In this document: positions 2,100 through 54,620 of the stretch, in pieces
How positions within the stretch are numbered: position 1 is the stretch's first letter
Layout of the letters: each line of letters starts with the position of its first letter
Made by a program: the position numbers and the translations under genes
The notes under the pieces: model-generated
The model's input: only the letters and a program-made list of their open reading frames with translations
Told to the model about the DNA's origin: nothing
Databases searched by the model: none
Assembly: GCA_036898135.1 (NCBI GenBank)
Contig: CM072525.1
Span: 53,280,299-53,344,298, forward strand
Direction: 5' to 3'
DNA: 64,000 bases
Origin: Oncomelania hupensis
Taxonomy: Eukaryota > Mollusca > Gastropoda > Littorinimorpha > Pomatiopsidae

Positions 2100-2928
2100 G
2101 CACATCACATCGTTTTTGTTGGCCATGAGATAGTTACACATCACATCGTTATTGCTGGCCATGAGATAGTTACACATCAAATCGTTATTGCTGGCCATCA
2201 GATAGTTATATATCACGTCGTTATTGCTGGCCATGAGATAGTTACACATCACATCGTTATTGCTGGCCATGAGATAGTTACACATCACATCGTTATTGCT
2301 GGTCATGAGATAGTTACACATCAAATCGTTATTGCTGGCCATCAGATAGTTATATATCACGTCGTTATTCTAGCCATCAGATAGATAGTTACACATCACA
2401 TCGTTATTGCTGGACATCAGATAGTCATACATCATGTCGTTATTGCTGGCCATCAGATAGATAGTTACACATCACGTCGTTATTGCTGGCCGTCAGATAG
2501 TTACACATCACATCGTTATTGCTGGACATCAAATACATAGTTAAACATCACATCGTTAATGCTGGCCATCAGATAGTTACACATCATATCGTTATTGCTG
2601 GCGATCAGTTACACCTCACGTCGTTATTGCTGGACATCAGTTCGATATACATCAAATCGTTAGTGCTGGCATCACATCACATCGCTAATGCTGGACATCA
2701 GACAGATAGTTACACATCACATCGCTAATGCTGGACATCAGACAGACACATCACATCGCTAATGCTGGACATCAGACAGACACATCACATCGCTAATGCT
2801 GGACATCAGACAGATAGTTACACATCACATCGCTAATGCTTGACATCAGACAGATAGTTACACATCACATCGCTAATGCTGGACATCAGACAGATAGTTA
2901 CACATAACGTCGTTAGTGCTGGTCATCT
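2100..2928. repeat. 36-bp minisatellite abutting the acceptor of exon 1951-2085
   Basis: Just over twenty units built on cacatcgttattgctggcca with variable linkers. The units nearest the exon are almost identical; those towards 2930 are shorter and more divergent. The array stops at the 5' end of an RTE LINE. Open frames across it on both strands are produced by the unit length (12 codons) and are not genes. Confidence 0.9.
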
Positions 2929-7100: not shown

Positions 7101-7427
7101 CATCAGTAGCATACTTTTCACCTCCGTCCTGGTGGCCAACGGAAGGCGCGGTCCTTGTGTAGCCGGGCGACGACCGATCCGGCATGGAATTAGTGGATAG
7201 CCTCATCATGTGTTGTGTCTTGGGCAAAAAAAGACCTGGCAGGGCCCAATCCTCTCCAGGCTGTTGGCCACAGCCGAAATCCACGAATACAGTGTGGCTC
7301 GCCTTGGCCCTGAGCACGTGGTCGTTGAACCTGTAGTAACGTGAGGTTCCTCCGCCCTGGCCGGTGACTTCTGTGTAGAAGACTTTCGCCCAGTGATGCC
7401 GTGCTAACATCACCCCTGTTAGTCGCC
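4140..7427 (-). mobile_element. RTE LINE, nearly full length, nested in an older copy
   Basis: A 3.3-kb copy with a 3' tail of (ggata)n and only about 60 nt missing at the 5' end. The RT frame at 4151-5788 carries the fingers/palm region, the FADD catalytic motif (FADDIDGLAGEE) and the C-terminal region ending YGTG. The endonuclease frame at 6337-7437 has TWNVR, ISELRWKG, GVGFLVHK, QGDWNAKVG and NQIDYI. The linking frame 5828-6478 is out of phase, so frameshifts separate the three. The RTE clade assignment rests on the CFDP2-like endonuclease and short-repeat tail (family knowledge). Confidence 0.92.
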
Positions 7428-7590
7428 TCAGTGTCAAATAAGTCCATTCTTGAATGTTGTCCTCTCACCTCTTTTTCTGTCCCTCTCTTCTTCTGGCACC
7501 TTGCCCCGTGTCTTGCAGGGTGATCTTTGCAAGGCCTGATGATCTGGTGACGTGGCCAAATCATCGGAGTTTCCGTTTCTTCACCACTGT
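7428..7590 (-). mobile_element. Older RTE copy, second piece
   Basis: Continues 4047-4139: gtgtcaaataagtccattct to tttcttcaccactgtc, corresponding to the C-terminal end of the RT frame. It is degenerate and truncated at 7590. Confidence 0.75.
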
Positions 7591-8074: not shown

Positions 8075-8206
8075 CACATGCATCTCCCGCCTTGCTCTCT
8101 ATGAAGCCGTCAGCACAAACACACTTGCCGCTGAAATCACACGCGGCGCCTGTAGCACATTCTGACGTCTCGCTTGCATTGTTGCACTGCTTACCCAGCA
8201 TCCGCT
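8075..8206 (-). CDS. Module exon 10 of the window (6-Cys EB-like)
   Basis: A 132-nt exon, phase 1 at both ends: acceptor GATGTGTACAG|AG, donor TGTG|GTGAGT. It encodes ERMLGKQC then six Cys spaced C-x8-C-x5-C-x5-C-x-C-x12-C, with CATGAAC, CDFSGKC, CVCADGF and a loop ending GDAC. The CxCxxGF stretch is the clearest EB/EGF-like signature in the window. A (TAG)n microsatellite lies 40 nt upstream of the acceptor, and the sequence after the donor is pyrimidine-rich (TTCTTCTCC). Confidence 0.86.
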
Positions 8207-10494: not shown

Positions 10495-12717
10495 GTGGGT
10501 TCGGGCACTGATTAGAATAGACCCAACGTTTCCCGACGTGTCATAAGAGGCGACTAACAGGGGTGATGTCAGCACGGCATCACTGGGCGAAAGTCTTCTA
10601 CACAGAAATCACCGGCCAGGACGGAGGAACCTCATGTTACTACAGGTTTAACGACCACGTGCTCGGGGCCAAGGCGAGCCACACTGTATTCGTGGATATC
10701 GGCTGTGGCCAACAGCCTGGAGAGGACTGGGCCCTGCCAGGTCTTTCTTGCCCAAGACACACTACATGATGAATAAAACCATTTACTCCATGCCGGATCG
10801 GTCGTCGCCCGGGTCAACAAGGACCGCTCCTTCCATTGGAGACCAGGATGGAGGCGATAAGTGTGCTACTGATGGACAACTTAGCAAGATCCGCACCAGA
10901 AATAACATCGTCACAGGAACTTGGAATGTCAGGAACCCTAAATGCGAGGGAAAATTAGAAGAACTGGCCCACGAGATGGACCACTATCGATGGAACGCTT
11001 TCGGGATCAGCGAACTGCGCTGGAAAGGCATAGGTGAAACAACGACCGACAAAAGCCACAAGCTTTATTTCAGCGGTAGAGATGACAGGCACGAACACGG
11101 AGTTGGATTCTTGGTCCACAAGAACATTCTAGCCACTGTCATGGGTTGCCGCCCAGTCTCCAGTAGACTCATTGCCATCCGTCTGAGAGCAGCCCCTTTC
11201 AACATCACCATCATCCAGGCCTATGCCCCAACATCAGACTATGACGACAGCAAAGTGGAGGATTTCTATGAAAATCTACAGGCTGTCCTTGACCAAGTGC
11301 CGAAGAAGGACATAGTAATAGTGAAAGGCGACTGGAATGCCAAGATTGGCCAAAATGCGCACCACAACTGGGGATACACATGTGGACAACACTGCAACAA
11401 TAAGACAAATGAGAGGGATCTGAGACTGTTGGAGTTTGCCAGATACAACAATCTGATACTGGCAAACACGCTTGGTCTCCACAAAAATTCAGACAATGGA
11501 CATGGCACAGTCCCGGCGGGGAGCATCACAACCAGATCGACTACATCATGGTCAAGAAACGCTTCAGATCAAGCATCAACATTGGCAGGACACGCATTTT
11601 TCCAGGAGCAGACATCGGAAGTGACCACGATCTCGTGATGATGTCTTTCCGGCTTCACTTGAAGAGAGTAAACACAGCAAAGTGCACTAGACTGAAGTTC
11701 TACCTGCACAAACTGCAAGACCCTGAGGTGGCAGAAATATTTCAGGCCACAATTGGAGGGAAATTTGCACTTCTCATTTTGGGAGCTGGTGAAGTAGATG
11801 TCAACACCATGACCACCACCTTCACCTTTGCTGTGACAGATGCCGCCACTGCAATCCTTGGCAAGCACCGCCCAAAGAAGAAGCTGTGGATCACACCTGA
11901 ACCTTTGCACATGTGTGATAAACGAAGAGAGATGAAAAAGAAAAAGAACACCTCACAGGGAGCTGATGCCTACCGAAAAATCAACAATGAAATCCGAAAA
12001 GGCATGCGCACAGCAAAGGAGAACTGGATAGAAGATCAATGCCAGAAAATAGAGAACAGTCTGAACAAGAACAACAGCAAGAAGGCTTACCAGACTGTAA
12101 AGCGGCCCAAAGTCTCCACGATCCAAAGCAAGTCTGGCATATGCCTTACAGAAGAACAAGAAGCCTTGGACAGATGGACAGAGTACTGCTCTGACCTTTA
12201 CAACCACAAACCAAACGGAGACCCATCAGTTCTAGCATGTCCAGAGAACAGAGAAGAAGAAGAAATCCTCCCAATTCTCAGAGAAGTTGAGGAAGCAGTG
12301 CAACCGCTGAAGAAGGGGAAGTCAGCGGGAGTGGACAACATACCCGCGGAACTGCTTCAAGCAGGAGGAGAAGCGATGATCGACGCACTCACCATTATCT
12401 GTAACAAGATCTAGCAGAGTGAGGAGTGGCCTACACAATGGACTCAGTCGCTTGTCATCACTCTTCCCAAAAAAGGTAACCTTCAGGAATGTGAAAATTA
12501 CCGCACCATCAGCCTCATCAGCCATCGTAGCAAGGTCCTCCTGAAAATAATACTAAACAGGTTGAAACCCCAAGCTGAACAAATCATAGGTGAAGAGCAA
12601 GCAGGATTCAGGGCAGGGCGAAGTGCCACTGAACAGATTTTCACCTCATAATAATATGCGAGAAATACCTACAGCACCAACAACATCTATGTCATGTGTT
12701 CTTCGACTTCAAAATGG
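10495..12717 (+). mobile_element. RTE LINE, 5' portion, interrupted copy
   Basis: Intact 5' end. The endonuclease frame 10748-11638 has GTWNVR, GISELRWKG, GVGFLVHKN and KGDWNAKIG. Frame 11548-12414 covers the linker and start of the RT and ends in a point nonsense (a Trp codon in related copies is TAG at 12412). RT sequence continues out of frame to 12717, where a Mutator-like element with a 9-bp target duplication is inserted. Confidence 0.9.
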
Positions 12718-18311: not shown

Positions 18312-19245
18312 AATCCTATCCTATCCTATCCTGTCCCATAACCCGAAGGTCGTAGGGGCACCACAGATGATCGCTTAACCAGCATACTCCATCTTTCTCT
18401 GTCCTCAGCAGCCCTCATGGCTTCGCTCAGTGTCAAACCAGTCCATTCTCGAATGTTGTCCTCCCACCTCTTTTTCGGTCTCCCCCTTCTTCTACCTCCT
18501 TGCACTGTGCCTTGCAGAATGGTCTTTGCAAGGCCTGATGATCTGGTGACGTGGCCATACCATCGGAGTTTCCGTTTCTTCACCACTGTGAGCAGGTCAT
18601 CGTGTTGTCCAATGGCTTGTGTGATGGTCTGTCGGACTTCAACGTTTGTGATGTGTTGGGTATAGGAAATGCACAGAAGTCTTCTGTAGCACCTCATCTC
18701 CATGCTTTGTATTCTTCGTTGGAGATCTGCTGTGAGGGTCCATGCTTCGCAAGCATATAGGAAGATGGAGATGACCAGAGAGCGCAACAGTCTTACTTTG
18801 GAATGTAGACTGATGGTTCTGTCTTTCCAAATGGGCTTCAACCTTGTCAGGGCAGCAGTTGTTTGTGCGATCCTGGAGAGGACTTCCTGTCGAGACCCAT
18901 TGTCTGACACAATGGCTCCTAAATATTTGAAGCTGTGCACTGTGTTGAGGGGTTGGCCTTGTACTTTGATGTCCGTGTTGATGCCATTGGTGTTGTTGGT
19001 CATCATTTTGGTCTTCTCCACACTTATTTCCATTCCATAAGCTCTGGAGGTGGTGTCAAGCCTCTGTACAAGCTGTTCAAGTTCTTGTTCCTCTCCAGCC
19101 AATCCATCAATATCATCTGCAAAACGAAGATTGGAGATTGCTCTGCCCCCTATTCTGACTGTGCCTTCGTGATCTGCAAGAGCGTCTGACATGATGCGCT
19201 CTAGGAAGATGTTGAAGAGTGTTGGAGAGAGTAGGCATCCTTGAC
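18312..19245 (-). mobile_element. 5'-truncated RTE LINE inserted in another LINE
   Basis: Carries the RT frame from RQGCLLSPTLFN through FADDIDGLAGEE to the YGTG end, nearly identical to the copy at 4140-7427 and with its C-terminal frame intact, so it is young. It is flanked by ATAAGGGAAT on both sides (left 18305-18315, right 19257-19268). The 5' junction carries an inverted duplication of atccttgacg. Confidence 0.9.
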
Positions 19246-19284
19246 GCGTCAAGGATGCGTCAAGGATAAGGGAATATAAGATCT

Positions 19285-20228
19285 TTAACTCTGGTTGCCC
19301 AGCACGACTTCCAATTTTGTCATTTTTAGCATCATTCTGTATGCTTGCTTTGGTAATCTTGTGTCAGGCATAGCAAGCAGTTTTAACCAGTATTTAATAC
19401 TTCTCAAGGTACTCTGTATGAATAATGGATGACGGCCTGATTCACCATAGACCATTCTATTTGGGGTCTTGATTGGGACATTCAAAAAACGTTTTATTGC
19501 CATGACATACAACCTCTCTAGGTTTTCAAACTTGAGCAGACCCCATACTTCTGAAGAATATAAGAGAATATGAGTTATCTGCGAATAAAAGATCTTACAA
19601 AATACATGGCTTGGCAAATCTTTCAGTGTTTTCAAAATTTTTAGATACTCCAAAGTTACTTTTCTGCCTTTTTGTACAAAATGATCAACACCACTGGCAA
19701 AACTCATTCTAATTGTGAACTTAAAACCCAAATAACCATAAATATTTACAACAACAAGCCGAACGCCATCCAAAAACCATCTTTTGCATTGCTTCAATAT
19801 ACCGCCATTTCTAAATACCATTATTTTAGTTTTATCTGTGTTAATAGTAAGTTTAAGATTAGAATAGGCATTAAAAAGACAATTAAGCTGATTTTGAAGC
19901 CCAAGAGCGGAGTGTGATATGAGGGCTATGTCGTCAGCAAACATTAGTAAGAACAACTCAATCAAACCTGGCATGAGCTGTACCTTATGCTTACCATTCT
20001 CTTTTACGTTTTCTGCGACAACATTAATGAACAGGGAAAACAAAGAAGGACGTAAAACACATCCCTGTCTCACGCCGACTGGGAACTCGAAAATGTCTGT
20101 AACACTGTTTCCCACTCGGACACAAAATAAAACTGACTTATAAATAGATTTCAATGCGTCAAATATCTATCCAAAGACGCCGACATCACATATCCTGGCA
20201 AAAAGAGAAATTCTGTTTAAAGGATGTT
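19285..20228 (-). pseudogene. Reverse transcriptase domain of a second LINE family
   Basis: Frame 19285-20154 encodes VGVRQGCVLRPSLFSLFIN, then MFADDIALISH (catalytic FADD) and thumb motifs (INTDKTKIMVF, ILLYSSEVWG). The sequence is clearly different from the RTE copies. It resembles the Jockey/CR1/L2 group; the exact clade is not determined. It is 5'-truncated where the 36-bp minisatellite begins, and its C-terminus continues in the pieces at 18079 and 17087. Confidence 0.85.
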
Positions 20229-20912: not shown

Positions 20913-20999
20913 CTGAACACAAAAACATCACCAACAATTAGATCATAATATTATATGGATTTCTCAATAGTTCCACAACAATCATGATGAGCTATAACG

Positions 21000-21432
21000 T
21001 CACACCATCAGTGTCATCCATAACGTGACAATATTAATGTCATATATAAGTCATACTGTCAGTGTCATCTATAACTTCACACTGTCAGTGTCATCTATAA
21101 AGCCACACCCTCAGTGTCGTCTATAACGTCACACCATCAGTGTCAGCTATAATGTCACACCATCAGTGTCAACAATAATGTCACATCATCAGTGTCATCT
21201 ATAACGTCACACCATCAGTGTCATCTATAATGTCACACCATCAGTGTCAGCAATAATGTCACATCATCAGTGTCATCTATAACGTCACACCATCAGTGTC
21301 ATCTATAATGTCACACCATCAGTGTCAGCAATAATGTCACATCATCAGTGTCATCTATAACGTCACACCATCAGTGTCATCTATAACGCCACACCATTAG
21401 TGTCGTCTAAAACGTCACACTATCAGTTTCAC
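21000..21432. repeat. 26-bp minisatellite upstream of exon 20820-20912
   Basis: About 16 units of gtcacaccatcagtgtcatc plus tataac, with a higher-order pattern of three units repeated near 21180-21360. Confidence 0.85.
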
Positions 21433-21912
21433 CAATAACGTGTCACACAAAAGTTTTGTCATACATCTTTAAATACTTTGATTTAGTGGGGAATCTGAAC
21501 CATCCAAAAGTCTGTCGGTATATCTGTCTGTTGTATATATAATTCATAAAATCCATTGAAAACATTGTTTAACATTTATTTCTTAAATGTAGCCTAGTGG
21601 TTTATTTCACTGTAGACTTTCGGCCACAGACTACTATGAGAACACGGCCCAACCTGAATTGTTATTTTAATGTTCCCTGGTAAAGGACATACACATTGTT
21701 GCCTTGCAATGCAGGAAGCGTGTTGAGAGCACACTTAATTGTCCACTACACTCTCTGGCAGGGAATTGCCACATTATTAGCATGAAGATAGTTTAGAGTG
21801 CAGCCCAGCAGTTATTTTAATGTAACAATACACGTTGTTTTAATATGCAAGGTGTGTGGGAATTCATTACAATGGTTTGCCGGCTTTCTTTACTTTCCTT
21901 CAGCACACAAGC
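21433..21912. other. No gene seen; unassigned intron
   Basis: Moderately AT-rich DNA without recognisable coding or repeat structure apart from cagcagttattttaatgt, present twice in variant form near 21660 and 21805. Confidence 0.5.
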
Positions 21913-22022
<110 letters not shown>

Positions 22023-22124: not shown

Positions 22125-22442
22125 AAAGCAATACATATCACACAGTAACATGCCAGTTGTCATATAACAAAATCAGTATCACACAGTAACATGCCAGTTG
22201 TCATCTTATTAAATCAGTATCACATAGTAACATGCCAGTTGTCATCTTATTAAATCAGTATCACATAGTAACATGCCAGTTGTCATTACTAAATCAGTAT
22301 CGCACAATAACATACCCGTTGTCATAGTACTATATCAGTATCACACAATAACATGCCAGTTGTCATATTACTAAATCAGTGTCACACAGTAAAATGCCAA
22401 TTGTCATATTACTAAATCAGTGTCACACAGTAACATGCCAGT
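22125..22442. repeat. 41-bp minisatellite upstream of exon 22031-22108
   Basis: Seven to eight units built on cacacagtaacatgccagtt plus gtcatattactaaatcagta. Confidence 0.82.
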
Positions 22443-22552
22443 TGTGAGAGTGGCACAAGTGTCTGGCCATCATAGACTGTCAACTGCAGAAGAGGAAGAA
22501 ACATCAATATGCACACCACCCGTGATTCTACTGGTTGCAAGTTGGCAATGGC

Positions 22553-24113: not shown

Positions 24114-26510
24114 CCAGACGATGGACATGACACAGTCCCGGCGGGGAGCATCACCACCAGATAGACTATATCATGGTCAAGAAACGCTTCAGATCAAGCA
24201 TCAACATTGGCAGGCCACGCACTTTTCCAGGAGGAGACATCGGAAGTGACCACGATCTCGTGATGATGTCTTTCCGGCTTCACTTGAAGAGAGTAAATAC
24301 AGCAAAGTGCACTAGACTGAAGCTCGACATGGACAAACTGCAAGACCCGGAGGTGGCAGAAATATTTCAGGCCACAATTGGAGGGAAATTTGCACCACTG
24401 CTCATTTTGGGGGCTGGTGAAGAAGATGTCAACATTATGACCACCACCTTCAACTCAGCTGTGACAGATGCCGCCACTGAGATCCTTGGCAAACACCGAT
24501 CAAAGAAGAAGCCGTGGATCACACCTGAACTTTTGGATCTTTGTGATAAACGAAGAGAGATAAAAAAAGAAAAAGAACACCTCATAGGGAGCTGATGTCT
24601 ACCGAACAATCAACAATGACATCCGAAGAGGTATGCGCACAGTAAAAGAGAACTGGATAGAAGATCAATGCCAGGAAATAGAGAACAGTCTGAACAAGAA
24701 CAACAGCAAGAAGGCCTACCCGACTGTGAAGCGGCTGATAAGTGTTAAACAGCCCAAAGTCTCCACGATCCAAAGCAAGTCTGGCTTATGCCTTACAGAA
24801 GAACAAGAAGTTTGGACAGATGGACAGAGTACTGCTCTGACCTTTACAACCATACACCAAATGGAGACCCATCAGTTCTAGCGTGTCCCGAGAACAGAGA
24901 AGAAGAAGAAATCCTCCCGATTCTCCGGGAAGAAGTTGAGGCAGCAGTGCAATCGCTGAAGAAAGGGAAGTCAGCGGGAGTGGACAACATACCCGCGGAA
25001 CTGCTTCAAGCAGCAGGAGAAGAGATGATTGATGCACTCACTATTATTTGTAACATGATCTGGCAGAATGGGGAGTTGCCTACACCATGGACCCAGTCGC
25101 TTGTCATCACTCTTCCCAAAAAAGGTAACCTTCAGGAGTGTGAAAATTACCGCACCATCAGCCTCATCAGCGATCCCAGCAAGGTCCTCCTGAAAATAAT
25201 ACTCAACAGGTTGAAACCCCAAGCTGAACAAATCATAGCTGATGAACAAGCAGGATTCAGAGCAGGGCGAAGTACCACTGAACAGATTTTCAACCTGAAC
25301 TCAACCTCAATAATCTGTAGGAAATACCTACAGCACCAACAACATCTATATCATGTGTTCATAGACTTCAAGAAGGCGTTTGACCGAGTCTGGCATGCAG
25401 CTCTATGGGCAACAATGAAAGTGTACAACGTCAGCCCTAACATTATTGAAGTCATCAAAAGCCTGTATGACAAGGCTACCAGTGCAGTCCTCCATAACAG
25501 CGTCATCGGAACTAGTTCAGAACAACAATCGGTGTGCGTCAAGGATGCCCATTCTCTTCAACACTCTTCAACATCTTCCTAGAGCGCATCATGTCATAAG
25601 CCCTTGCAGATCACGAAGGCACAGTCAGCATAGGGGGTAGAACAATATCCAATCTTCGTTTTGCGGATGAGATTGATAAATTGGCTGGAGAACTTGAACA
25701 GCTGGTACAGAGGCTTGACACCACCTCCAGAGCTTATGGAATGGAAATAAGTGCAAAAAAGACCAAAATGATGACCAACAACAACAATGACATCAACACG
25801 GACACGGACATCAAAGTCCAAGGCCAGTCCCTCAAAACAGTGCATAGCTTCAAATATTTAGGAGCCATTGTATCAGACAATGGGTCCCGACAGGAAGTCC
25901 TCTCCAGGATCGCACAAACAACTGCTGCCCTGACAAGATTGAAGCCCATTTGGAAAGACGGGACCATCAGTCTACATTCCAAAGTAAGACTGCTGCGCAA
26001 TACAATACAATACAATACAATACAAGGTTATTGCTTTAGGTCCAGCGCTCCCTTGTCATCTCCATCTTCCTATATGCTTGCGAAGAATGGACCCTCACAG
26101 CAGATCTCCAACGAAAAATACAAAGCATGGAGATGAGGTGCTACAGAAGACTTCTAGGCATTTCCTATACCCAAGACATCACCAACGACGAAGTCCGACA
26201 GACATCACACAAGCCATTGGACAACACGATGACCTGCTCACAGTGGTGAAGAAACGGAAACTCCGATGGTATGGCCACGTCACCAGATCATCAGGCCTTG
26301 CAAAGACCATTCTGAAAGGCACAGTGCAAGGAGGTAGAAGAAGAGGGAGACCGAAAAAGAGGTGGGAGGACAACATTCGAGAATGGACTGGTTTGACACT
26401 GAGCGAAGCAATCAGGGCTGCTGAGGACAGAGAAAGATGGAGTATACTGGTTAAACGATCATCTGTGGTGCCTCTACATCCGGGTTATGGGACAGGATAG
26501 GATAGGATAT
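24114..26510 (+). mobile_element. RTE LINE, 5'-truncated, with small insertion
   Basis: Begins in the C-terminal endonuclease region and covers linker frame 24173-24595, RT start 24788-25582 (SAGVDNIPAELLQA, FIDFKKAFDRVWHA) and C-terminal frames to 26500, broken by several frameshifts and a missing stretch around 25540. At 25999-26042 a 43-bp piece with (aatac)n and ggttattgctttaggtcc interrupts it. Ends in GGATAGGATA. Confidence 0.9.
25999..26042 (-). mobile_element. Extremely 5'-truncated insertion, about 43 bp
   Basis: Reads on the minus strand as tggacctaaagcaataac followed by a (TATTG)n tail: the last bases of the tail family seen at 17060, 23790 and 39985. It is flanked by GCGC on both sides, a plausible 4-bp target duplication. 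Confidence 0.7.
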
Positions 26511-38060: not shown

Positions 38061-38647
<587 letters not shown>

Positions 38648-38687: not shown

Positions 38688-38813
38688 TGCACATGAAGTC
38701 TACAGGATCAACGACAAGGCCCTGTTTACACACACAGACATCGTCCTTGCACTCGGCGTTTTCATCCGCACAGGCTCCACCGCACTGTGCACTGCTTAAC
38801 CCTGGCTTGGGCA
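38688..38813 (-). CDS. Module exon 6 of the window (6-Cys EB-like)
   Basis: A 126-nt exon, phase 1 at both ends: acceptor AATTGTTTCAG|TG, donor TGCA|GTAAGT. It encodes PKPGLSSAQC, CGGAC, CADENAEC, CKDDVCVC and a 12-residue loop ending DFMC, spacing C-x3-C-x6-C-x4-C-x-C-x12-C. Its first loop is the shortest of the set. The acceptor is embedded in a 31-bp tandem array whose units copy it, and the donor is followed by a (CT)n tract of about 128 nt starting 41 nt away. Confidence 0.85.
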
Positions 38814-39190
38814 CTGAAACAATTCATGTCTGTGATATACTGGATTGAAACAGTTCATCCCTGTGATATACTGCACTGAAACAATTCAAATCTGTGATAT
38901 ACTGGACCTAAACACTTCATGTCTGTAATTTACTTCACTAAAACAGTTCATTTCTGTGCATGTGGTATACTTCACTGAAGTTCACTGTCTGTAATATACT
39001 GCACTGAAACAGTTCATGTTTGTGATATACTTCACAGAAACAGTTCGCAGTCTGTGAAATACTGCACTGAAAGAAATCAATCTGTGATATATTTTGCACT
39101 GAAAGATTTCGCAGCCTGTGATATACTGCACTGAAAAATTAAAGCCTTTAAAATATACTGCACTGAAACAATTCATGTCTGTGATATTCT
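38814..39190. repeat. 31-bp minisatellite carrying copies of the exon 38688-38813 acceptor
   Basis: About twelve imperfect units (actgaaacagttcatgtctg and gtgatatactgc). On the sense strand each reads ...CATGAATTGTTTCAGTGC..., the same as the real 3' splice site AATTGTTTCAG|TGC at 38814. The array starts at the exon boundary and runs upstream. Confidence 0.88.
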
Positions 39191-40849: not shown

Positions 40850-41590
40850 TAGCTTGTCGGTTTGTGCCAGCTTGTAGGTCTGTCTGTTAGCTTGTAGGTC
40901 TGTCTATCAGCTTGTAGGTCTGTCTATCAGCTTGTAGGTCTGTCTATCAGCTTGTAGGTTTATCAGCTTGTAGGTCTATCTATCAGCTTGTCTATCAGCT
41001 TGTAGGTCTGTCTATCAGCTTGTAGTTCTGTCTATCAGCATGTAGGTCTGTCTATCAGCTTGTAGGTCTATCAGCTTGTAGGTCTGTCTATTAGCTTGTA
41101 GGTCTGTCTATCAGCTTGTAGGTCTGTCTATCAGCTTGTAGGTTTATCAGCTTGTAGGTCTATCTATCAGCTTGTCTATCAGCTTGTAGGTCTGTCTATC
41201 AGCTTGTATGTCTGTCTATTAGCTTGTAGGTCTGTCTATTAGCATGTAGTTCTGTATATCAGCTTGTAGGTCTGTCTATCAGCTTGTAGGTCTGTCTATC
41301 AGCTTGTAGGTCTATCAGCTTATTAGGTCTGTGTAGGTCTATCAACTTGTAGGTCTGTATATCAGCGTTTAGGTATGTCTATCAGCTTGTAGTTCTGTCT
41401 ATCAGCTTGTAGGTTTATCAGCTTATAGTTCTGTATATCAGCTTTTAGGTCTGTCTATCAGCTTGTCAGCTTGTAGTTCTGTATATCAGCGTGTTGGTCT
41501 GTCTGTCTGTCAGCTTGTAGTTTTGTATATCAGTTTGTTGGTTTGTCTGTCAGCTTGTTGGTCTGTCTGTCAGCTTGTAGATCTGTCGGT
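40850..41590. repeat. 20-bp minisatellite upstream of exon 40620-40742
   Basis: More than 30 degenerate units of cagcttgtaggtctgtctat with shorter variants. Confidence 0.88.
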
Positions 41591-43530: not shown

Positions 43531-43534
<4 letters not shown>

Positions 43535-43581
<47 letters not shown>

Positions 43582-43628
43582 GAGAGAGAGGGAGAGACAG
43601 AGAGACAGGTAGACAGGAAGAGGGAGAC
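43535..43628. repeat. (GA)n microsatellite, (CT)-rich on the sense strand
   Basis: Pure GA to about 43577, then imperfect GA/GGGA/GACA to 43628, ending 3 nt from the donor of exon 43633-43710. Confidence 0.95.
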
Positions 43629-43710: not shown

Positions 43711-43724
43711 CTTAACAAAATATA

Positions 43725-43960
43725 GACAGACAGACAGTTGTGACAATTGTGGGAGTAACTGTGAGGGAAAGGAAATGTAGATAGAGAAAGAGGTGGAAAG
43801 ACAGACAGACAGACAGATGTGACAATTGTGGGAGTAACTGTGAGGGAAGAGAAATGTAGATAAAGAAAGAGGTGGAAAGACAGACACAGACAGATGTGAC
43901 AATGGTGGGAGTAACAGTGAGGGAAGGGAAATGTAGATAGAGAAAGAGGTGGAAAGAGTG
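43725..43960. repeat. 70-bp repeat, three copies, upstream of exon 43633-43710
   Basis: Three copies of a unit containing gatgtgacaattgtgggagt, aactgtgagggaagggaaat and agaaagaggtggaaagacag. The first copy starts 14 nt upstream of the exon acceptor. Confidence 0.82.
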
Positions 43961-43994
43961 GAGGATTAAGAGAGAGTTTCCACATGGGCGTTTT

Positions 43995-44089
43995 TTGTTG
44001 TCACAATTACGGCACAGGCATCATATTTACGACACAGGCATCATATTTACGACACAGGCCTCACATTTACGACACAGGCGTCACACTTA
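43995..44089. repeat. Left remnant of the 20-bp donor minisatellite
   Basis: Four to five units of the same 20-bp family (tttacgacacaggcrtcaca) as 51526-52920, ending exactly where the hAT terminus cagggccggacc begins. This places the 7.4-kb transposon inside the array. Confidence 0.85.
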
Positions 44090-44674
44090 CAGGGCCGGAC
44101 CTAAGTTTTTAAAGGGGGAAGAGGGGGGGGGGGGGTGGGGGGGGAGGGCCAAACTTGTTATTGGGTTAAGCGAAGGCGCCAAGCGCCGAGCCTTTTAGAA
44201 GGTCTGGGGCATGCCCTTCCCCCCCCCCCCCCTCCCGGAATTTTTTTTAAAGGATGCAAAATGGTGCAATCTTAGTGTTTTAGATCACGTACATTTTGAG
44301 GTATTATACCTCTTGGCGTCCAAAATCACGTAAAAGAGTGCCAGAGAAGAGGTCTGATCACGTAATGGTTTTTCTGAAAACGTAAAGAAATGTATCAGCG
44401 GAGGTACGGTCATGTAGGCTATCGCAACTTGCGCAATGGACTTATGTAGGTTCCGCATTTTTTTTAAGTTGTCTGTTCTGAGATTCGATGATCACTAGCA
44501 GGAATTGCAACGTTCAAGTGCCTATGCGCTTCCGTAGCAAACGACCGATCATGACGTATCCACAAGGGAAGAAAGTCTACTTCGGTTCGGTCACTTCTCT
44601 TCGTTCCATGTGTACATGGCGCCGAGTTTCGACTTTTTTCTGTTGCACTGTGGCTTTGTTTCAATTCAACATTC

Positions 44675-45075
44675 ATGCGGCCTCCGTCAAAGCCAACAAA
44701 GAAAAGGAAAGCAGAAGAAGCTGCGCCAGGGAATCAACAACAAAGTATAAGTATGTTGAAGTTTTTGAAAGTAGTTAAAGGTGATAAAACTGGATCATCG
44801 TGTGATCAGCAGAAAAATCTGCCTGAATTAGGCTTAAATCGATACATTTAAGAAGGCTTCTATTACGCAAGGAAACACTTCTACCAACGAGTTTGACCCT
44901 TGTGCTTCCACGTCGTCATCTACGACCGAGTCTGACCCTTGTGCTTCCACGTCGTCATCTACGACCGAGTCTGACCCTTGTGCTTCCACGTCGTCATCTA
45001 CGACCGAGTCTGACCCTTGTGCTGAGCCTCTGTATGGGAGTTTAGAATGTGTTTTAATTCAGTTCATGCTATGAA
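44675..45075 (+). pseudogene. hAT-type transposase N-terminus, frameshifted
   Basis: ATG at 44675 opens a 58-codon frame (MRPPSKPTKKRKAEEAAPG, then QQQSISMLKFLKVV) ending at TAA 44851. A one-base shift leads into a frame with three to four copies of a 13-residue repeat (DPCASTSSSTTES, 39-bp DNA unit), then a stop. A basic nuclear-localisation-like start and Ser/Thr linker are usual for TTF/hAT transposases; the catalytic part is missing. It is opposite in strand to the main transposase frame. Confidence 0.6.
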
Positions 45076-46112
45076 TAGCATGTGATGAGTCTGGAGCTGA
45101 TTCATGTAACTGTTGTTGCGTCCTTTTCTGCCATTTCAAAATGACAAATTAAAGTTGTTTCAGCCTTACTTATACTATCAACAAGCTTGAAGTGATGAAC
45201 ACAGTACACAATTTGTACTAATTTTTTTTAAGAGAACATCTCTCTCTCTCCCTCTCTTTCTTTGTTGTTGTGGACACTAAACAGGAGATGATTACATGAA
45301 ACAATATTTCCATCTTGAATATTTCAAAACTTTATTAAGTCAAGAACAGTATGTTTTGCTTCACAACATGCTAGACAGTGTCACAATATCATATGTAATG
45401 ATGTCAAGAAACTTGCATACAAATTAATGAAGCAAAAACAACAAAGTACTTGCGAATGATTGTACCCTTTGAAAATCCAGCTGGAGGTATGAATACCCTT
45501 TACATTTTGACTCAGGAGGTATGAATACCCTCACATTTTTTTTTTAAATCTTAAACACTGAATCTGGCGCTATCTGAACCTTGAAAAATGGATCTTACAA
45601 AAGTGACTAAAAACTGCAGTGTTTTAATTTAAAAACAATAAATAAATAAATAAATAATTTGGAACCCTCTTTGCAACGTTTATCAAAAACAGTGAATATT
45701 TTTTTTTCTTTTGAGGGGGCATTGGGTTTGACAGACAACACACATGCGAAGGACAAACTGAGAAATGTTGTTTATTGCAACTGATAAAACATTTGGAAGA
45801 CATTATTCGTAGCTTAAAAAAAAAGATTCTTTATGATTAGTATAAGTTACTAATGGTGATGGCGATAGTAGTCAAGTGTTTTAATTAATGATCTCACTGA
45901 TAATGAGAACGGGTTAGGAAAGGGACGTGGAACCTTAATAAATGACGCAACGCAAAACAAAACCTACAGTACTCCCAGTTTTTGCGCTCTTTTGAAGCAT
46001 ACCTCGAACACATCAGGAGTTGGCAACTTCTACACTCACATAAGTGTTCCGTTTCCAAGCAAAATACGCAGACACAAGGGCTTATGGTTTGACATAGAGC
46101 TAGACACCTTAT
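45076..46112. other. No gene seen; hAT interior
   Basis: AT-rich with a short duplication ggaggtatgaatacccttya (45485 and 45517). This is the presumed 3' untranslated side of the minus-strand transposase. Confidence 0.5.
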
Positions 46113-48353
46113 TTACGTCAAGAGATCGTCTGTTTTCAATGCCATCATTGTTAAATACTTTCTGGCAAAGACATTTAACACTTGTTGCACATCGACTGGC
46201 CTGTCTCTGTGGATGCGCATCAGTGCTAACCCATTTAATCGATCTTGACCAATGGAGGAACGTAGACATGTCTTCAGAGGTTTTAGTCTGAAAATCGTTC
46301 TTTCACATTCCGCCGTAGTGATTAGCAGGGTACACAGCGGTTTTATCAGGATGTGGATATTTGGAAACATGTCACTGTCACATGCCTTTAACGCTGCTGT
46401 GGTCGTTTGTGGCGTTTCAAAGTTGGAATTACGCCATTTGTTCACCCAGTCATTCCACTCAGCAGGGATGTCTTGGCTGCTTTGCATATCGGCCTCCCAC
46501 AGTTTAGCCAGGTCTGCGACGCCTGCTGGAACAGTGTTGAATCCAGGGTGCGCTGACTTCAGTAAAGCTGACGGCATTAAAATCAGCCCGTTAGCTGCAA
46601 CTTCAGCTTGGCCAAATCTTTGTTGAAGTTGGAGCAGAAGAAAATCTACAATGGGATAGCCACAGACCTTCGGTAGTACTGCTCTGGTGTGTCAGCGCGT
46701 GGGTTGCCTATCATGGTCTGCCTGTTGCCCTGTCGGTTGACTTCGAGGTCAACTCCAGCATCTGCAGCAAAGTCTGTGGCTTGTCGAAACCAGTCCTCAA
46801 ATGTAGCAGCCATGGAATTTCGCAAGCCTTGCAAACAGGAGATCACATTCCGTATCTCCTGATACACACTTGTGATGTCATTCTCTTTCTTCTGCAACTG
46901 CACGGTGGGACATTAATGTATCCCAAGCCATTCTTTGCAGTTACCAGCGCAACAATGAAACTGCTGCTTTGAAGGCTCTTGAGTAGGCCCGACGATCGAG
47001 GTAAAGTGTCTGCGTCCCAGCTGCCTAGTCTTTCAGCCACCATTTGACCGCGGCAATCGCATACACTGCTGTGCATTTCATAGAACGTGTCCAGTGCCTT
47101 CAGCCGCTCCATCCATCTTGTTCTACACAGAGCTACCAGCTTCTTCTTTTTTGTGCCATTTGAATTGCTGCTCAAGACCTCTTCAAGTTTCCGTTGGCGC
47201 TTTTGAGAACAAGAGAAGAAAAGAGATATTTCCTTTACTGTAAGTCACTGAACATGCTCATAATTTGGGGGTACACTGCACGCTTTCATGACGCAAAGAT
47301 TCAGGCAGTGGCTGGCGCAATGGACGTACGTTGATCTGTCGTATGCGGGCCTGCACCCCTTGAACTCTGCCCGCCATGTTAGCTGCGCCATCATACCCTT
47401 GTCCTCTGAGATCCTGTGGGTGTAAACGCCAATTGTCTAGGCACTGGAGTATGTTGTTTGCGATGGTTTCCTTTGTTATCTTGTGACAGGAAACAAAACA
47501 CAAGAATTCTTCCCTGACGTTAAAGTCAGAATCCACAAACCTTAAGACGACGGACAACTGCTCCCAGTTGCTGACATCAGTGACTTCATCCGCCAGAACA
47601 GTGAAGTACTTTGCTTCGCGGACCTCAAAAAGCAGATTCGCTGTGATTTGATGAGCAATGATGTCAATTATTCGATTTTGGGTGGTCTTTGAGACGTAGG
47701 TAGTACGAGCGAGGCACGTCTTTAAATGTTCGCCGAGACTTTCGTGCCCTGCCTAGATGCGAAATTCAAGCAGTGTGTTGAAGTTGCTAGCGTTCTCTTC
47801 CTCTAATACCCCGTCATCTCTGAAGCCCCTCAGTGCACTCCCTTGCCGTCCGCACAACAGAACAGTCTCAGCAACGCTTGCAAGAATCTTGCGGTTGAAT
47901 TCAACCCTTTCCGCAGCTTGAGTATCAAGCAAACTGATCCCGCTTGTTGCCGGCTTGCTCATTGTTTGAAGAAAATTCTCATTCCGTTCCAGTGCATCTT
48001 GGTGATATTTACAAGCAGAATGTTCTTTGAACTTCCTAGTGTTTTCTTCCAGTGTTTGAAGGTACAGGACACAAACTGTCCAGCAGGAATGCTTCCTGAA
48101 GTGGTAAAGAACACGCAGTGTTTGCAGTACAACCCATCTTCTGCAGGAGAATAAGCTAGCCATGGATAAGCTTTCAGCCACCTGCCTTGGCAAAGTCGTG
48201 AATGTCCTGACTGTGTCCTAATAGGAAACTGATATTTCTCTGAAGGGGTCCAATGTTCAGTGAGGAGAGAGAACTTGTTGTCATTCAAAGTGGACAGTAT
48301 CTCATCACCAACACACTTTTCAAAGTCCGGCCGGGTTTTGTGAAGTGAACTGT
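46113..48353 (-). pseudogene. hAT transposase main exon (TTF-finger/DUF4371-like), frameshifted
   Basis: Minus strand. Acceptor TTTTCCAG|AC (phase 1) at 48354. In order it encodes KTRPDFEKCVGDEI, a TTF-type zinc-binding region (LAYSPAEDGLYCKHCVFF), LRGQGYDGAANMAGRVQG of the catalytic region (47258-47557), and the hAT C-terminal dimerisation motif ECERTIFRLKPLKTCLRSS with RLNGLALMRIHRD, stop at 46113. Frames are 47959-48384, 47753-48193, 47258-47557, 46646-47175 and 46113-46577, so at least four frame changes inactivate it. It belongs to the ZMYM1/P52rIPK-like hAT group (family knowledge). Confidence 0.82.
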
Positions 48354-48465
48354 CTGGAAAATTAACATGCCAAAAAACCAACAATCAGTAATAATGATAA
48401 AGTCAGAACTAGACTTGGCTGATTAATAATCTACAAATTAACCTCAACATTTTTCAGTATTTTTC

Positions 48466-48511
48466 TTCTTCTTCTTCTTCTTCTTCTTCTTCTTCTTCTT
48501 CTTCTTCTTCG
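48466..48511. repeat. (CTT)n microsatellite
   Basis: About 15 CTT units inside the hAT, in the intron before the main transposase exon. Confidence 0.95.
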
Positions 48512-48614
48512 TTGTTGTTGTTGCCTTTAATAGTTTGAACAGAAGTTTGAACTATAGTTTTAAAAAACCAACAACTAATAATTGAATAACTCAATGAATT
48601 GAGATAACAACTAC

Positions 48615-48838
48615 TTACATTTAGGCTCCGTTGTAGTTTGTCTAGTAGCAATGGAAGTTTACATTTAGGCTCCGTTGTAGTTTGTCTAGTAGCACTGGAA
48701 GTTTACATTTAGGCTCCGTTGTAGTTTGTCTAGTAGCACTGGAAGTTTACATTTAGGCTCCGTTGTAGTTTGTCTAGTAGCAATGGAAGTTTACATTTAG
48801 GCTCCGTTGTAGTTTGTCTAGTAGCAATGGAAGTTTTG
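48615..48838. repeat. 44-bp tandem repeat containing an exon end and donor
   Basis: Five units (donor position recurring at 48617, 48661, 48705, 48749, 48793). Each holds gagcctaaat|gtaa on the minus strand; only the outermost has the full gtaagt. Confidence 0.9.
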
Positions 48839-48902
48839 TGGGGAGCAGCTGAAGTTAGACGTGGAGGGTTGAGGAGTGTCTGGCGTGCAGGGCCTGGGCA
48901 CA
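48795..48902 (-). pseudogene. Candidate upstream exon of the hAT transposase
   Basis: Acceptor CCTACTGCCAG|TG and donor AAAT|GTAAAC give a 108-nt phase-1 exon encoding LTSAAPHKTSIATRQTTTEP, a Thr-rich linker that would splice in phase to 48353. The strong donor GTAAGT exists only at 48618, after four extra 44-bp copies of the exon end; reading to it meets a stop. The exon model is therefore uncertain. Confidence 0.4.
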
Positions 48903-49249
48903 CTGGCAGTAGGACTGTCGCCTGTACAAAGAACATTCAGGGACTGTTATGTGTATGTGTGTGTGTATGACACTGTAGTGACTGTGTACTGAGAACATAA
49001 ATAGATCATGCTAAGTTTTGAACAGAAAAAACAAACACACAAAAGCTGACGATAATTTAATTTCTAATGATAATTCCGTGAATATAATAACGAAGAGAGG
49101 GAGTGGCGAGAAAAAGTAGGGTGCGGGTAGGGGTGGTCAGTAGGAGGGGAAGAAGCAGAAGACAGTTTAGGAAATATAATAGATTGCTCCAATTGTTCAC
49201 AGTAAAGGGACAAAATACAGAAGAGAGACAAGATCATGATACACCTTAC

Positions 49250-49366
49250 CTACGGAATGCAAAGTAGTGGTTGTAAAACGTTCTTCTTCCTGGGATGTAG
49301 AACCCTCAGGCTTTGGTGTAGCGGAGGTGGGTGACACATTCAGATTGGTGCAAGTCCGATTGCCAC
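49250..49366 (-). pseudogene. Ser/Thr-rich linker exon of the hAT transposase
   Basis: A 117-nt exon, acceptor GTTCATTACAG|GT, donor GTAG|GTAAGG, phase 1 at both ends. Encodes GNRTCTNLNVSPTSATPKPE and EEERFTTTTLHS. It could be mistaken for a module exon of the host gene, but it has one Cys, lies inside the transposon, and splices in phase between the candidate exons at 49652 and 48795 or 48353. Confidence 0.6.
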
Positions 49367-49651
49367 CTGTAATGAACAAAACATGCTATTTTAACCACAA
49401 ACGGCCTATGCACAAAGTATAGCGATGAAGATAAACAGAATCAGTTGTGCGTGGGCACTCGTGTTTGAGATAATCTTGTTCAAAATGTATTTTCTTTTCT
49501 TTAATTTCTTCAAGTTTAATGGCGTTTTCACTCGTCATTTAGGCTATGTGATTGATCCAGTGTAGCCATTTTGGATATAGTCAGTGTACTTTCTCATTGT
49601 CAAGACATGCTGAGCTCATTCTGTATACAAAAGTAGTCATTATTTATTTAC

Positions 49652-49770
49652 CTGACTTTTGCCAAAACGATTCCAGACGTTTTGTACCTGCGGCCTCCAC
49701 AGGTTTTAGAGCTTTCCTTTTTGGCGTATTGTCAAAATTTCGGCGCAAAAAAACACTTCCAAAGTCGGAA
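49652..49770 (-). pseudogene. Candidate first coding exon of the hAT transposase
   Basis: Ends TCAG|GTAAAT in phase 1 and encodes NTPKRKALKPVEAAGTKRLE then SFWQKS, a basic N-terminus like that of hAT transposases. No in-frame ATG is found before an upstream TGA, so the true start is lost or in another exon. The upper limit is approximate. Confidence 0.45.
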
Positions 49771-50188
49771 GTGAGATTATGTCATAGCGGGTCAGCCAGC
49801 GTCTTTTGACCGCTTTGCAAACGAAATCTCGGTAGGCCTAACATAGTATACGTACTACACACCGACTCAACCAAAGCTTTTAGGTTTTGAAGCTAGTTCA
49901 GCCAGGCTAGCTATAAATAGCTTTGCCAGTGCTCTTCTTTCCTATCCTTTCACTGAAAGGGAGGGTGTAGGCAAGCTATAAATAGCCCGCAGCCAGCAAA
50001 ATGTGGGATAACCTAAGAGTGCTATTCACATAGGCATTGAGCTGCTGTGACTACTTATAGAAGTTAGTCGACTTCAGAGACCGCAAAATAGGATACGCAA
50101 AACATTCAACACTACCTTCTAATATTCTTTGTTTTATCGTTTGTTGATTTTATGTTTTTGTTTGTTTGTCTTTCGTTCTTTCTTCTTA

Positions 50189-51373
50189 TGGCCTTCGCAC
50201 ACTGGCGTCTAAATCTTGGCGCTTGCGTCAAAGCGTCTTTGACGCGACGACGCCTGCAACTTGCTGCGTGCGTCATGGCTCGCACACAGGCGGCTTTTGA
50301 CGCGCGCTTCTTTTGTGTACTTTCCATATTTGGAAAGTAGGCCTGGTTGAATTTTTTTCCTAAATGAGATGTGTAGCCATAGAGGTATAATTAGCTAGTT
50401 TTATCTCTATACATGTGTGGTAGTGCCTGTGCATAGGTCACTATATTACGTCATTTCATTATTGACGTAAACAATCGCTGATGTGTTGGGGACAATAATC
50501 TATGAAACGTAAACAAGCGCAAGCGGTCGATCCCGGCGGCTTTCGACGCGCGCTTTTTTTGTGTACTTTCCATATTTGGAAAGTAGGCCTGGTTGATTGT
50601 TTTTCCTAAATGAGACGTGTAGCCATAGAGGTATAACTAGCTAGTTTTATCTCTATACATGTGTGGTATGCATATGCCTGTGCATAGGCTAGGTCACTAA
50701 ATTACGTCATTTCATTATTGACGTAAACAATGGCTGATGTGTTGGGGACTATAATCTATGAAACGCAAACAAGCGCAAGCGGTCGATCCCGGCCGTTTCT
50801 GTTGAGTCTGATCTTTTCTCGCACTTCAGAAACACGTGTAGCACATTCCTACATAGCATGTGGTCACACAAGGCCTAATAATATCCGACACTACGTACTG
50901 ACAAGCTGATAATTCAGAGCCGATCCACACACTGACAGATTTAGAACTTAAAGTCAAAGAGACAACATCAGCAAAATATTTGGTCATCCACTTAGTCTAC
51001 CACTCCAGCCCTTGTTCATGACACTGGCGATGTAGACCATGCTCTCCCTGTTCTTATCCCTATCATGGTATGATTTCAACCCTGAATTTTACAAGTTCTC
51101 CTGACTCTGAAATAATTCAATCAACAACAGCACCTCATCTTCTTTCAAATCCGCCATTTTGCTTTTGAGAACGAGCGAGAGCTGCATTCTGATTGGTGAA
51201 GCCGCGCGCCTTGCCGCTTGGAAATAGGATGGATTCTATTCTTGCGGTGACGCGCCGCGTCCGAACGCGCGCAGCAGTCGCGGACGCGAGGAAGTCTCGC
51301 ACACAGAGCAGCGCGCCCAAAACTTAACGCGACGTACCAAAACTTGACGCGTTGACGCTAGTGTGCGAAGGGC

Positions 51374-51374
<1 letters not shown>
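50189..51374. mobile_element. PIF/Harbinger-like non-autonomous element, 1.19 kb, target duplication TTA
   Basis: Inverted ends GGCCTTCGCACACTGGCGTC (left) and, on the complement of the right end, GCCCTTCGCACACTAGCGTC, flanked by TTA (50186-50188 and 51375-51377). Subterminal gacgcg motifs recur at both ends. An internal direct duplication of about 245 bp (50291-50537 and 50536-50793) contains gtgtactttccatatttgga. No coding sequence. It is nested in the hAT. Confidence 0.75.
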
Positions 51375-51428
<54 letters not shown>

Positions 51429-51450
51429 ACACACACACACACACACTCTC
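51375..51450. repeat. (AC)n microsatellite
   Basis: About 35 AC units with interruptions between the Harbinger-like element and the hAT right end. Confidence 0.95.
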
Positions 51451-51525
51451 ACAATTTTGTTTTTGAGGGGGATTAGGGGCGGAGGGGCCAGGGCCTCCTG
51501 GGCCCCTATAGCAGGTCCGGCCTTG

Positions 51526-52920
51526 TACTTACGACACAGGCGTCACACTTACGACACAGGCGTCACACTTACGACATAGACGTCACACTTGCCGCTCAGG
51601 CAGTGTCACATTTACGATACAGGCGTCACTTTTACGACACAGGTGTCACATTTACGACACAGGCGTCACACTTACGACATAGACGTCGCACTTGCCGCAC
51701 AGGCACTGTCACACTTACGACACAGGCGTTACACTTACGACAAAAGCGTTACACTAACGACAACACAGGCGTCATGCTTACGACACGGGCGTCACGCTTA
51801 CGACACAGGCACACCACTTACGACACTGGCGTCGCGCTTACGACACAGACGGCACATTTACGATGCAGGAATCACACTTACCACACAGGCGTCACATTTA
51901 CGACACAGGCATCACATTACGACACAGGCGTCACAATTGCCGAACAGGCGGTGTCACATTTACGACACAGGCGTCACACATACGACATAGACGTCGCGCT
52001 CGCCGCTCAGGTATTGTCACAGTTACGGCATAGGCGTAACACTTAGGACACAGGCGTCACAACGACACAGGCGTCACACTTAAATACAAACGGCACTCGT
52101 ACGACACAGGCGTTCTTTGTTGTCACACTTAGGTCACAGGCGTTCTTTGCTGTTACACTTGCGACAAAGGCGTTCTTTGCTGTCACACTTGTGACACAGG
52201 CGTTCTTTGTTGTCACACTTTCGACACAGGCTTTACACTTACGACACAGGCGTTCTTTGTTGTCACACTTTCGACACAGGCTTTACACTTACTACACAGA
52301 CGTTTTTTGTTGTCACACTTGCGACACAGGCGTTCTTTGCTGTCACACTTGCGTTCTTTGTTGTCACACTTGCGACACAGGCTTTAGACTTACGACACAG
52401 ACGTTTTTTTGTTGTCAACTTATGACACATGCGTCACACTTACGACACCGCAGTTCTTTGTCACACATACGAAACAGCCGTTCTTTGTTGTCACACTTAC
52501 GACATAGGCGTCACACTTTCGACACTTTCGTCACATTTACGACACAGTCGTCACTCTTACTACACAGGCGAAACACTTAAGACACATTCTCAACAATTAC
52601 AACACAGGAGAAACACTTAGGACACATTCGTCACACTTACGGCACCGGCGTCACACTTACGACACAGGCGTTATACTTAAGAAATTGATGTCACACTTAC
52701 CACACAGGTGTCACACTTATGACACAGGCGTCACACTTACGACACAGGCGTTAAACTTACAATATACACTTCACACTTACTATGCAGGGGTCACACTTAT
52801 GACATATGCGTCACACTTATGACACACGCGTCACACTTACGACACAGGCATCATATTTACGACACAGGCGTCATACTTGCGACATAGACGTTATACTTAC
52901 GACACAGACGTCATACTTAC
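51526..52920. repeat. 20-bp minisatellite carrying copies of the exon 52921-53004 donor
   Basis: Some 60-70 units of roughly 20 bp. The sense-strand unit is GCCTGTGTCGTAAGTGTGAC; the neighbouring exon ends CTGTGTC|GTAAGTATGACG. Most units keep CGTAAGT intact. Some units between 52100 and 52500 carry an extra gttctttgttg block. A further four or five units lie at 43997-44089, on the other side of the hAT insertion, so the array was once continuous. Confidence 0.92.
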
Positions 52921-53004
52921 GACACAGCTGTTGGCGGCCGTCACACTGAGATCCAGTCTCACAGGCGTCTTGATCTTTACTGCAGTCCGCGTTGATATTC
53001 AGTC
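52921..53004 (-). CDS. Module exon 3 of the window (4-Cys type)
   Basis: An 84-nt exon, phase 1 at both ends: acceptor GTTGTTCAG|GA, donor TGTC|GTAAGT. It encodes LNINADC then CSKDQDAC, CETGSQC and CDGRQQLC, spacing C-x6-C-x5-C-x6-C. The donor lies at the very edge of a 20-bp minisatellite (51526-52920) whose units copy the exon end and splice site. The downstream intron is 9.2 kb because a 7.4-kb hAT transposon sits inside that same array. Confidence 0.8.
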
Positions 53005-53940: not shown

Positions 53941-54298
<358 letters not shown>

Positions 54299-54414: not shown

Positions 54415-54620
54415 ATCAAAAGTTAGATCAAAGTCAAAACAAAAATTACAACAAAGGCAGACAAAAGTCAAAACAAAGTCACAATAAAGTTAGATACAAG
54501 TCAAAACATAGTCACAATAAAGTTAGACATAAGTCAAAACAAAGTCACAATAAAGTCATACACAAGTCAAAGTCACAACAAAGTCAGACAAGGTCAAAAC
54601 AAAGTGACAGCAAGTCAAAA
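54415..54620. repeat. Short tandem repeat, aaagtcacaataaagt family
   Basis: About seven degenerate units of 26-28 bp (caaaacaaagtcacaataaa, gttagacacaagt) just upstream of exon 54317-54397. Confidence 0.75.

Follow-up and report, generated by a model that had tools for sequence, protein, structure and literature searches.

When an exon is followed directly by dozens of copies of its own donor site, it may be asked where these copies came from, whether splicing makes any use of them and how one donor among many is chosen. Such an exon end lies in the window analysed here, a stretch of 64,000 nucleotides of the Oncomelania hupensis assembly GCA_036898135.1 (contig CM072525.1, positions 53,280,299 to 53,344,298), and all coordinates below are positions in this window. 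In lancelets, tandem repeats whose units run across the border between exon and intron, on the 5′ or the 3′ splice site, have been described as ‘mirages’ (PMC3087553, PMC3902484), and this name is used below for the arrays of the snail that are discussed in the same terms. Splice junctions are marked by a slash.

The array and its repeat unit

Array 1 (mirage 1) occupies 51527-52927 on the minus strand, where about 70 units of 20 bp (CTGTGTCGTAAGTGTGACGC) extend over 1,401 bp and form the start of the intron after a predicted exon at 53004-52921. TRF reports a period of 20, 67.7 copies, 66% matches and the unit ACTTACGACACAGGCGTCAC, the reverse complement of the unit given in a first-pass annotation of this DNA, and a wrap-around parse yields 71 units, 59 of them register-safe. 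In the minus-strand reading the unit is CTGTGTC/GTAAGTGTGACGC, and unit 1 consists of the last 7 nt of the predicted exon together with the true donor. The 15-mer core TGTCGTAAGTGTGAC, with up to two mismatches allowed, is found 45 times in the window (0.25 expected), 43 times in array 1 and twice at 44.0 kb. TRF, the parse and the 15-mer count therefore all confirm the 20-bp minisatellite spanning exon end and donor that the first-pass annotation had described, although the interval assigned to it there (51526..53004) includes the exon as well as the array.

The same annotation had placed a donor in every unit, which is true of some units only, as GTAAGT occurs 22 times in array 1 and TGTCGTAAGT 16 times; the full donor is kept in roughly one third of the units, and about two thirds lack GTAAGT. 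Over the 7,441 nt of intron that follow, GTAAGT is found once, and the minus strand outside array 1 has 15 copies of it. Internally the array is heterogeneous: its middle part (approximately 52102-52461) consists of 30-bp variant units with 10 extra bases, and the higher periods of 50 and 63 bp that TRF detects show block duplication. An exon-like open stretch, RKCDSKERLCRKCDNKKRLC, stands before a GTAAGT at 52293-52355, within the 30-bp part.

The adjoining exon and the predicted gene

The predicted exon beside array 1 (52921-53004, minus strand) is 84 nt long, of phase 1-1 and Cys-rich (peptide LNINADCSKDQDACETGSQCDGRQQLC), and lies between the acceptor TTGTTCAG/GA and the donor CTGTGTC/GTAAGTATGACG. 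It most likely starts at 53004; an alternative acceptor at 53058 is likewise open in frame, and the last exon base, 52921, is the same with either. The scan favoured 53058 over 53004 and, at another exon of the gene, 38801 over 38813; both 53004 and 38813 were picked by eye, the latter after the array at 38811-39187 had been noticed.

The gene around array 1 is a prediction from exon structure alone. Eleven predicted exons were kept, all of them on the minus strand, of phase 1-1 and ending in TGY N/GT, a uniformity that is partly built in, since the scans required 1-1 frames and the second of them also a TG ending. An initial motif list, which made no demand on splice sites or phase and contained many matches to microsatellites and arrays, provided seven minus-strand exons, picked by eye. 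A scan for Cys-rich 1-1 frames gave nine candidates on the minus strand and one, a microsatellite, on the plus strand; five loci were retained from the nine, the others being a microsatellite, part of a hAT element, and further possible starts of the same exons. The second scan, in which a TG codon before the donor was also required, gave 12 minus-strand candidates (including alternative starts and one stretch inside array 1) versus two on the plus strand. Ten of the 11 exons are loci of this second scan; the eleventh, 40742-40620, was missed by all scans, and its donor, GTACTA, is weak.

Three single exons show weak matches to the Pfam EB module (E 3.6e-4, 0.0072 and 0.0028), all of them under Pfam's cut-off; the best, at 8075-8206 on the minus strand, reaches 21 bits, the cut-off being 24.3. 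No EB match was obtained in Pfam for exon 40742 alone or for the spliced proteins. The spliced protein had no match in PDB (E up to 1), in Pfam or in the protein collection (E up to 10), the searches of the latter covering proteins of 0.55-1.75 times the query length, so that longer annotated proteins would escape. Rfam gave no match at the gathering threshold.

Origin of the array and its probable division by a transposon

Apart from its last 7 nt, the exon has five 8-mers in common with the unit of array 1, namely those of GACGCCTGTG (52969-52960) and AGTGTGACG (52947-52939). Only 1 of 5000 codon shuffles shares as much, and among the 10 other exons eight share no 8-mer and two share one. 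Exon 53004-52921 and its junction would together supply three pieces from which the unit can be composed.

The second copy of the unit, at 43990-44089 on the minus strand, appears to be the severed tail of array 1 (TRF gives 44001-44090 and 4.5 copies; the limit at 43990 is an extension by eye that adds one unit of the 30-bp type). Between the two parts lies a probable hAT transposon of about 7.4 kb (44090-51525, minus strand, that is, in gene sense), recognized by inverted ends and transposase domains. It begins with CAGGGCCGGACCT at 44090, matched by the inverted AGGTCCGGCCTTG that ends at 51525, and separate open frames in gene sense encode the domains DUF4371 (E 9.2e-16) and Dimer_Tnp_hAT (E 1.9e-6). 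Transposons of the hAT type create an 8-bp target duplication; here ACTTA flanks the element on both sides, and the duplicated stretch is ACTTA only, with no clean 8 bp. The phase of the units is continuous from the main array across the element into the tail. Together, the inverted ends, the hAT domains, the flanking ACTTA and the continuous phase indicate that array 1 was once about 1.5 kb long and was split by a hAT insertion.

The view of the first-pass annotation that ‘the array grew from the splice junction itself’ is thus borne out as regards origin: the 8-mers in the exon and the tail split off by the hAT element make it a well-supported reading of the sequence that array 1 was made from the splice junction of exon 53004-52921. 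The sharing between exon and unit may also stem from conversion of the exon by array 1. As for the direction of growth, an outward gradient from the junction was not found in array 1 when identity to unit 1 was compared with distance (Spearman rho 0.03). An A at position +7, as in the true donor, is present in units 1-4 and in five of the other 67, which are scattered.

The donor copies and competing explanations

The donor columns of array 1 are conserved at 0.879 versus 0.852 for the remaining columns, a value that 24% of random six-column sets attain; among the 20 contiguous six-column windows of the unit the donor ranks third, which may reflect weak constraint. In two further arrays of the gene, at 457-1961 (mirage 2) and 38811-39187 (mirage 3), the splice columns reach 0.888 versus 0.909 and 0.875 versus 0.848, with 69% and 37% of random sets as high. 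By column conservation, then, none of the three arrays shows purifying selection on its splice columns, and the units of array 1 have decayed with no clear preference for donor retention.

The first-pass annotation had proposed scoring all units for 5′ splice strength. A crude model of U1 pairing energy gives -7.6 kcal/mol for the true donor; 13 other sites of array 1 are equal to it and two are stronger (-11.0), so that the true donor is surpassed within its own array, and in mirage 2 as many as 36 of 215 GT sites exceed the true donor. When all 28 donor-like sites of array 1 (GTRAG, or a U1 energy of -6 kcal/mol or lower) are considered, the true donor alone is predicted to give a stop-free frame, the 27 decoys leading to a frameshift or a stop; an in-frame stop is found 17 codons into the exon extension. 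The region 52700-53004 folds somewhat better than shuffled sequences (z -2.56, 1 of 100 as good), and the z values of seven 200-nt windows of array 1 range from -4.72 to +0.81. Concealment of the decoys by RNA structure was considered and rejected, as the predicted accessibility of the true donor does not exceed that of the decoys. Unit 1 is thus marked out neither by strength alone nor by predicted accessibility, and the donor at the exon edge would rather be chosen by position.

Several explanations can be weighed against these data. The donor copies might be a functional platform that recruits U1 snRNP, thereby aiding exon definition or guarding a long intron from premature polyadenylation, as U1 telescripting has been reported in animals. 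Their density (22 GTAAGT in 1.4 kb versus the single one in the following 7,441 nt) and the sites that tie or exceed the true donor are in keeping with this, as is the distribution of sense-strand polyadenylation signals further down the intron, where three AATAAA and eight ATTAAA occur, all inside the hAT element and none in array 1. However, the hAT element with its signals is younger than the array, most units have no GTAAGT, the donor columns are not clearly more conserved than the rest, and in mirage 2 the donor has lost its +5 G in 20 of 43 register-safe units, all of which makes such a platform unlikely. Alternatively, the copies could be regulated alternative donors, with some transcripts being spliced from internal units to frameshifted, decayed or altered products in the manner of human IFI6; in favour of this are the 13 internal sites that equal the true donor in U1 pairing, the two that surpass it, and predicted accessibilities by which the decoys are not shielded. 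Yet every one of the 27 decoys is predicted from sequence to break the frame or meet a stop, and in lancelet mirages aberrant mRNAs are reported as absent in the accounts consulted (PMC3902484, PMC3087553); this kind of regulation is distinctly unlikely. The roles envisaged in the first-pass annotation (exon definition, U1 titration, suppression of polyadenylation, a shift in donor use) hence remain unsupported.

Two further explanations concern the source of the repeat rather than its use. The 30-bp unit could be the older one, with ten in-frame codons, and array 1 could have been coding until a donor cut the repeats off. Its translation, K C D S K E R L C R, resembles the exon's S Q C D G R Q Q L C R; 13 of the 21 bases upstream of CTGTGTC match when the register is held fixed, a score reached by 104 of 20000 shuffles of the codons and by 22 of 20000 shuffles of the bases; another 30-bp unit is situated at the far end of the severed tail; and intronisation of duplicated exon sequence has been put forward as an idea (PMC2891723, PMC3087553). 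These points suggest, with modest support at the sequence level, a ten-codon ancestral unit of 30 bp, but 83 other places in the window match equally well, local alignment with the register left free lacks significance, 671 of 2000 codon shuffles doing as well, and the ending TGY N/GT shared by the predicted exons, partly a product of the scans, implies that the donor is probably older than the array. An intronised coding repeat is therefore considered very unlikely. The least credible explanation is that a dispersed satellite landed beside the exon by chance. This was also the outcome that the first-pass annotation had regarded as contrary to its own reading; the copy at 44.0 kb might seem to favour it, but that copy, the sole other one in the window, is the array's own tail beyond the hAT insertion, and a satellite dispersed within the window was rejected on this ground. 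Pieces of the unit inside the exon itself also argue against it, as does, more weakly, the fact that an exact 22-mer of the unit is absent from viral contigs.

Array 1 is probably, then, a mirage-type minisatellite derived from the exon end and its donor, spliced at unit 1 and otherwise near-neutral. A short stretch over the exon end and the donor would have been duplicated in tandem, the first copies perhaps being put together from exon and junction pieces joined at the short homologies GACG, CTGTG and AGT; the tandem copies would then have expanded to about 1.5 kb by unequal exchange or slippage, and the hAT transposon would later have divided them. Splicing would stay at unit 1, whose donor lies at the edge of the exon, while the other copies would be silent or rarely used and the array would be tolerated. 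At least one further array of the gene, and probably two, would have arisen likewise. In all likelihood, therefore, the array does not work as a splicing device but is a by-product that the gene tolerates.

Further arrays and crowding at exon edges

Mirage 2 is a donor array of 43 copies of a 35-bp unit (457-1961, minus strand) after a predicted EB-like exon at 1951-2085 (its start may be 2097; minus strand) with the donor AATGCA/GTCAGTATA. The unit comprises the last 11 nt of that exon (10 of 11 alike) and its donor, and the splice signals consist of GTCAGT (19) and GTAAGT (3). Another predicted EB-like exon, at 38688-38813 on the minus strand (126 nt, phase 1-1, acceptor TTGTTTCAG/TGC), is preceded by 12 copies of a 31-bp unit that contains TTGTTTCAG/TGC (38811-39187, minus strand), many of the units carrying TTTCAG. 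This mirage 3 is an acceptor array if the acceptor is 38813; with the other acceptor, 38801, the array stands 10 nt before the exon and not over the splice site. Neither for mirage 2 nor for mirage 3 are there 8-mers common to unit and exon body, so that only 11 bases (mirage 2) and 3 bases (mirage 3) link the units to their exons. In addition, a 36-bp array (2101-2926, minus strand) ends right before the CAG of acceptor 2097, at 3 nt from the exon and with the splice site not included.

Arrays that reach over a splice site, defined as overlapping the exon edge by up to 12 nt, are present at 3 of the 22 exon edges, where random placement gives a mean of 0.24 and 22 of 10000 random sets reach three (an earlier run of 5000 gave a mean of 0.25 and 12 sets as high); with acceptors 38801 and 53058 the count is 2 of 22, which 274 of 10000 random sets reach. 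For tandem arrays of any kind, 10 of the 22 edges have one no farther than 30 nt away (1.49 at random) and 15 have one no farther than 100 nt away (3.61 at random); none of 3000 random sets is as high in either case, transposon regions having been masked by hand for these controls. The alternative acceptors leave both counts unchanged (1.54 and 3.59 at random, the counts being reached by 1 and 0 of 3000 sets), and in the first eight exons minus the one beside array 1, 10 of 14 edges are within 100 nt of an array versus 1.96 at random. It is conceivable, and we propose it only tentatively, that the exon edges of this gene are favoured birthplaces of tandem arrays, a local process at the splice junctions giving rise to them again and again, in part with the neighbouring splice signal included, and that its introns have largely been renewed from their own ends. 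If this were true, mirages would represent a general way in which introns grow, and new introns might also come from them.

Other repeats and elements of the window may be recorded here. In gene sense, (CT)n runs start 13-44 nt past the donors of four exons (54097-54297, 43534-43605, 21914-22018 and 38518-38644); CU-rich tracts bind PTB. Arrays before acceptors at 20992-21441, 22136-22445, 40868-41587 and 54419-54620 contain the branch-point-like motif CTRAY in sense and none in antisense. Of the arrays near acceptors, 3 of 5 have about one CTRAY per unit, and of the other arrays 4 of 24 have one or more for every two units, a post hoc comparison that is not conclusive. Directly before exon 43710-43633 lies an array of three 79-bp copies (43724-43957), two of which have acceptors like CTTCCCTCACAG or TTTCCCTCACAG. 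LINE-type pieces with endonuclease and/or reverse transcriptase domains occur in both orientations (4151-7464, 10652-11638, 18326-20166 and 24749-26136). Among the best 120 of 1762 matches to the window's reverse transcriptase, animal proteins reach up to 77% identity, and the few named ones include sea spider, tubeworms, brittle star, crab and fish, with no lancelet.

Comparison with known systems

In lancelets, mirages have been reported in Adh3, the globins BflGb6 and BflGb9, troponin C and, in an imperfect form, PGBD5, with units of 10-72 bp in Adh3 and 150-160 bp in the globins (PMC3087553, PMC3902484). According to the same accounts, splice signals are retained in many units, boundary units escape homogenisation and regular splicing is undisturbed, and a model of intron gain has been built on these repeats (PMC3087553, PMC3902484). 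Likewise, the unit of array 1 spans the boundary of the predicted exon (7 exon nt and the donor), and splice signals are present in copies of arrays 1, 2 and 3. The difference is one of scale, as approximately 70, 43 and 12 units are found here, in up to three arrays of one gene, whereas the two haplotypes of the BflGb6 mirage have 6 and 3 units (PMC3087553, PMC3902484). A genome-wide survey of mirages was not found in the literature searched, which does not rule out that one exists.

Human genes offer parallels at donor sites. Like array 1, the human IFI6 array is a minisatellite that provides donors where an exon ends; the use of its units as splice donor sites was reportedly described by Turri, Cuin and Porter in 1995. 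The units of IFI6 (6-16, G1P3) are indeed recorded as acting as splice donors at the exon end (PMC4526556). Use of two downstream units there gives rise to three mRNAs, whereas the decoys here are predicted to break the frame or to meet a stop. The 31-bp VNTR of human CBS, which affects donor use, likewise crosses an exon end into the intron at a donor. Listed as c.1444_1467+7(16_21), it runs from exon into intron (PMC2630376). It differs in having 16-21 copies of a constant 31 bp, array 1 having about 70 diverged ones. The formation of introns from tandem arrays is said to have been treated by Zhuo and others in 2007. Internal tandem repeats of human segmental duplications, located at exon-intron boundaries like array 1, have been suggested to form novel introns (PMC2812944); they are recent and nearly identical, on average 30-bp units in four copies, unlike the diverged array 1.

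Array 1 is accordingly a further example of a kind already described in lancelets and in human IFI6 and CBS, and of interest are the size of the array, the presence of two or three such arrays in one gene and the clustering at exon edges. With 13 equal and two stronger U1 sites in tandem after the true donor, it is a case made by nature in which the choice of a donor can be studied: should splicing use unit 1, position and not strength must select the donor. The gene also brings together arrays at both kinds of splice site, and whether clustering at exon edges is a way for introns to grow or to be gained can be examined across whole genomes.
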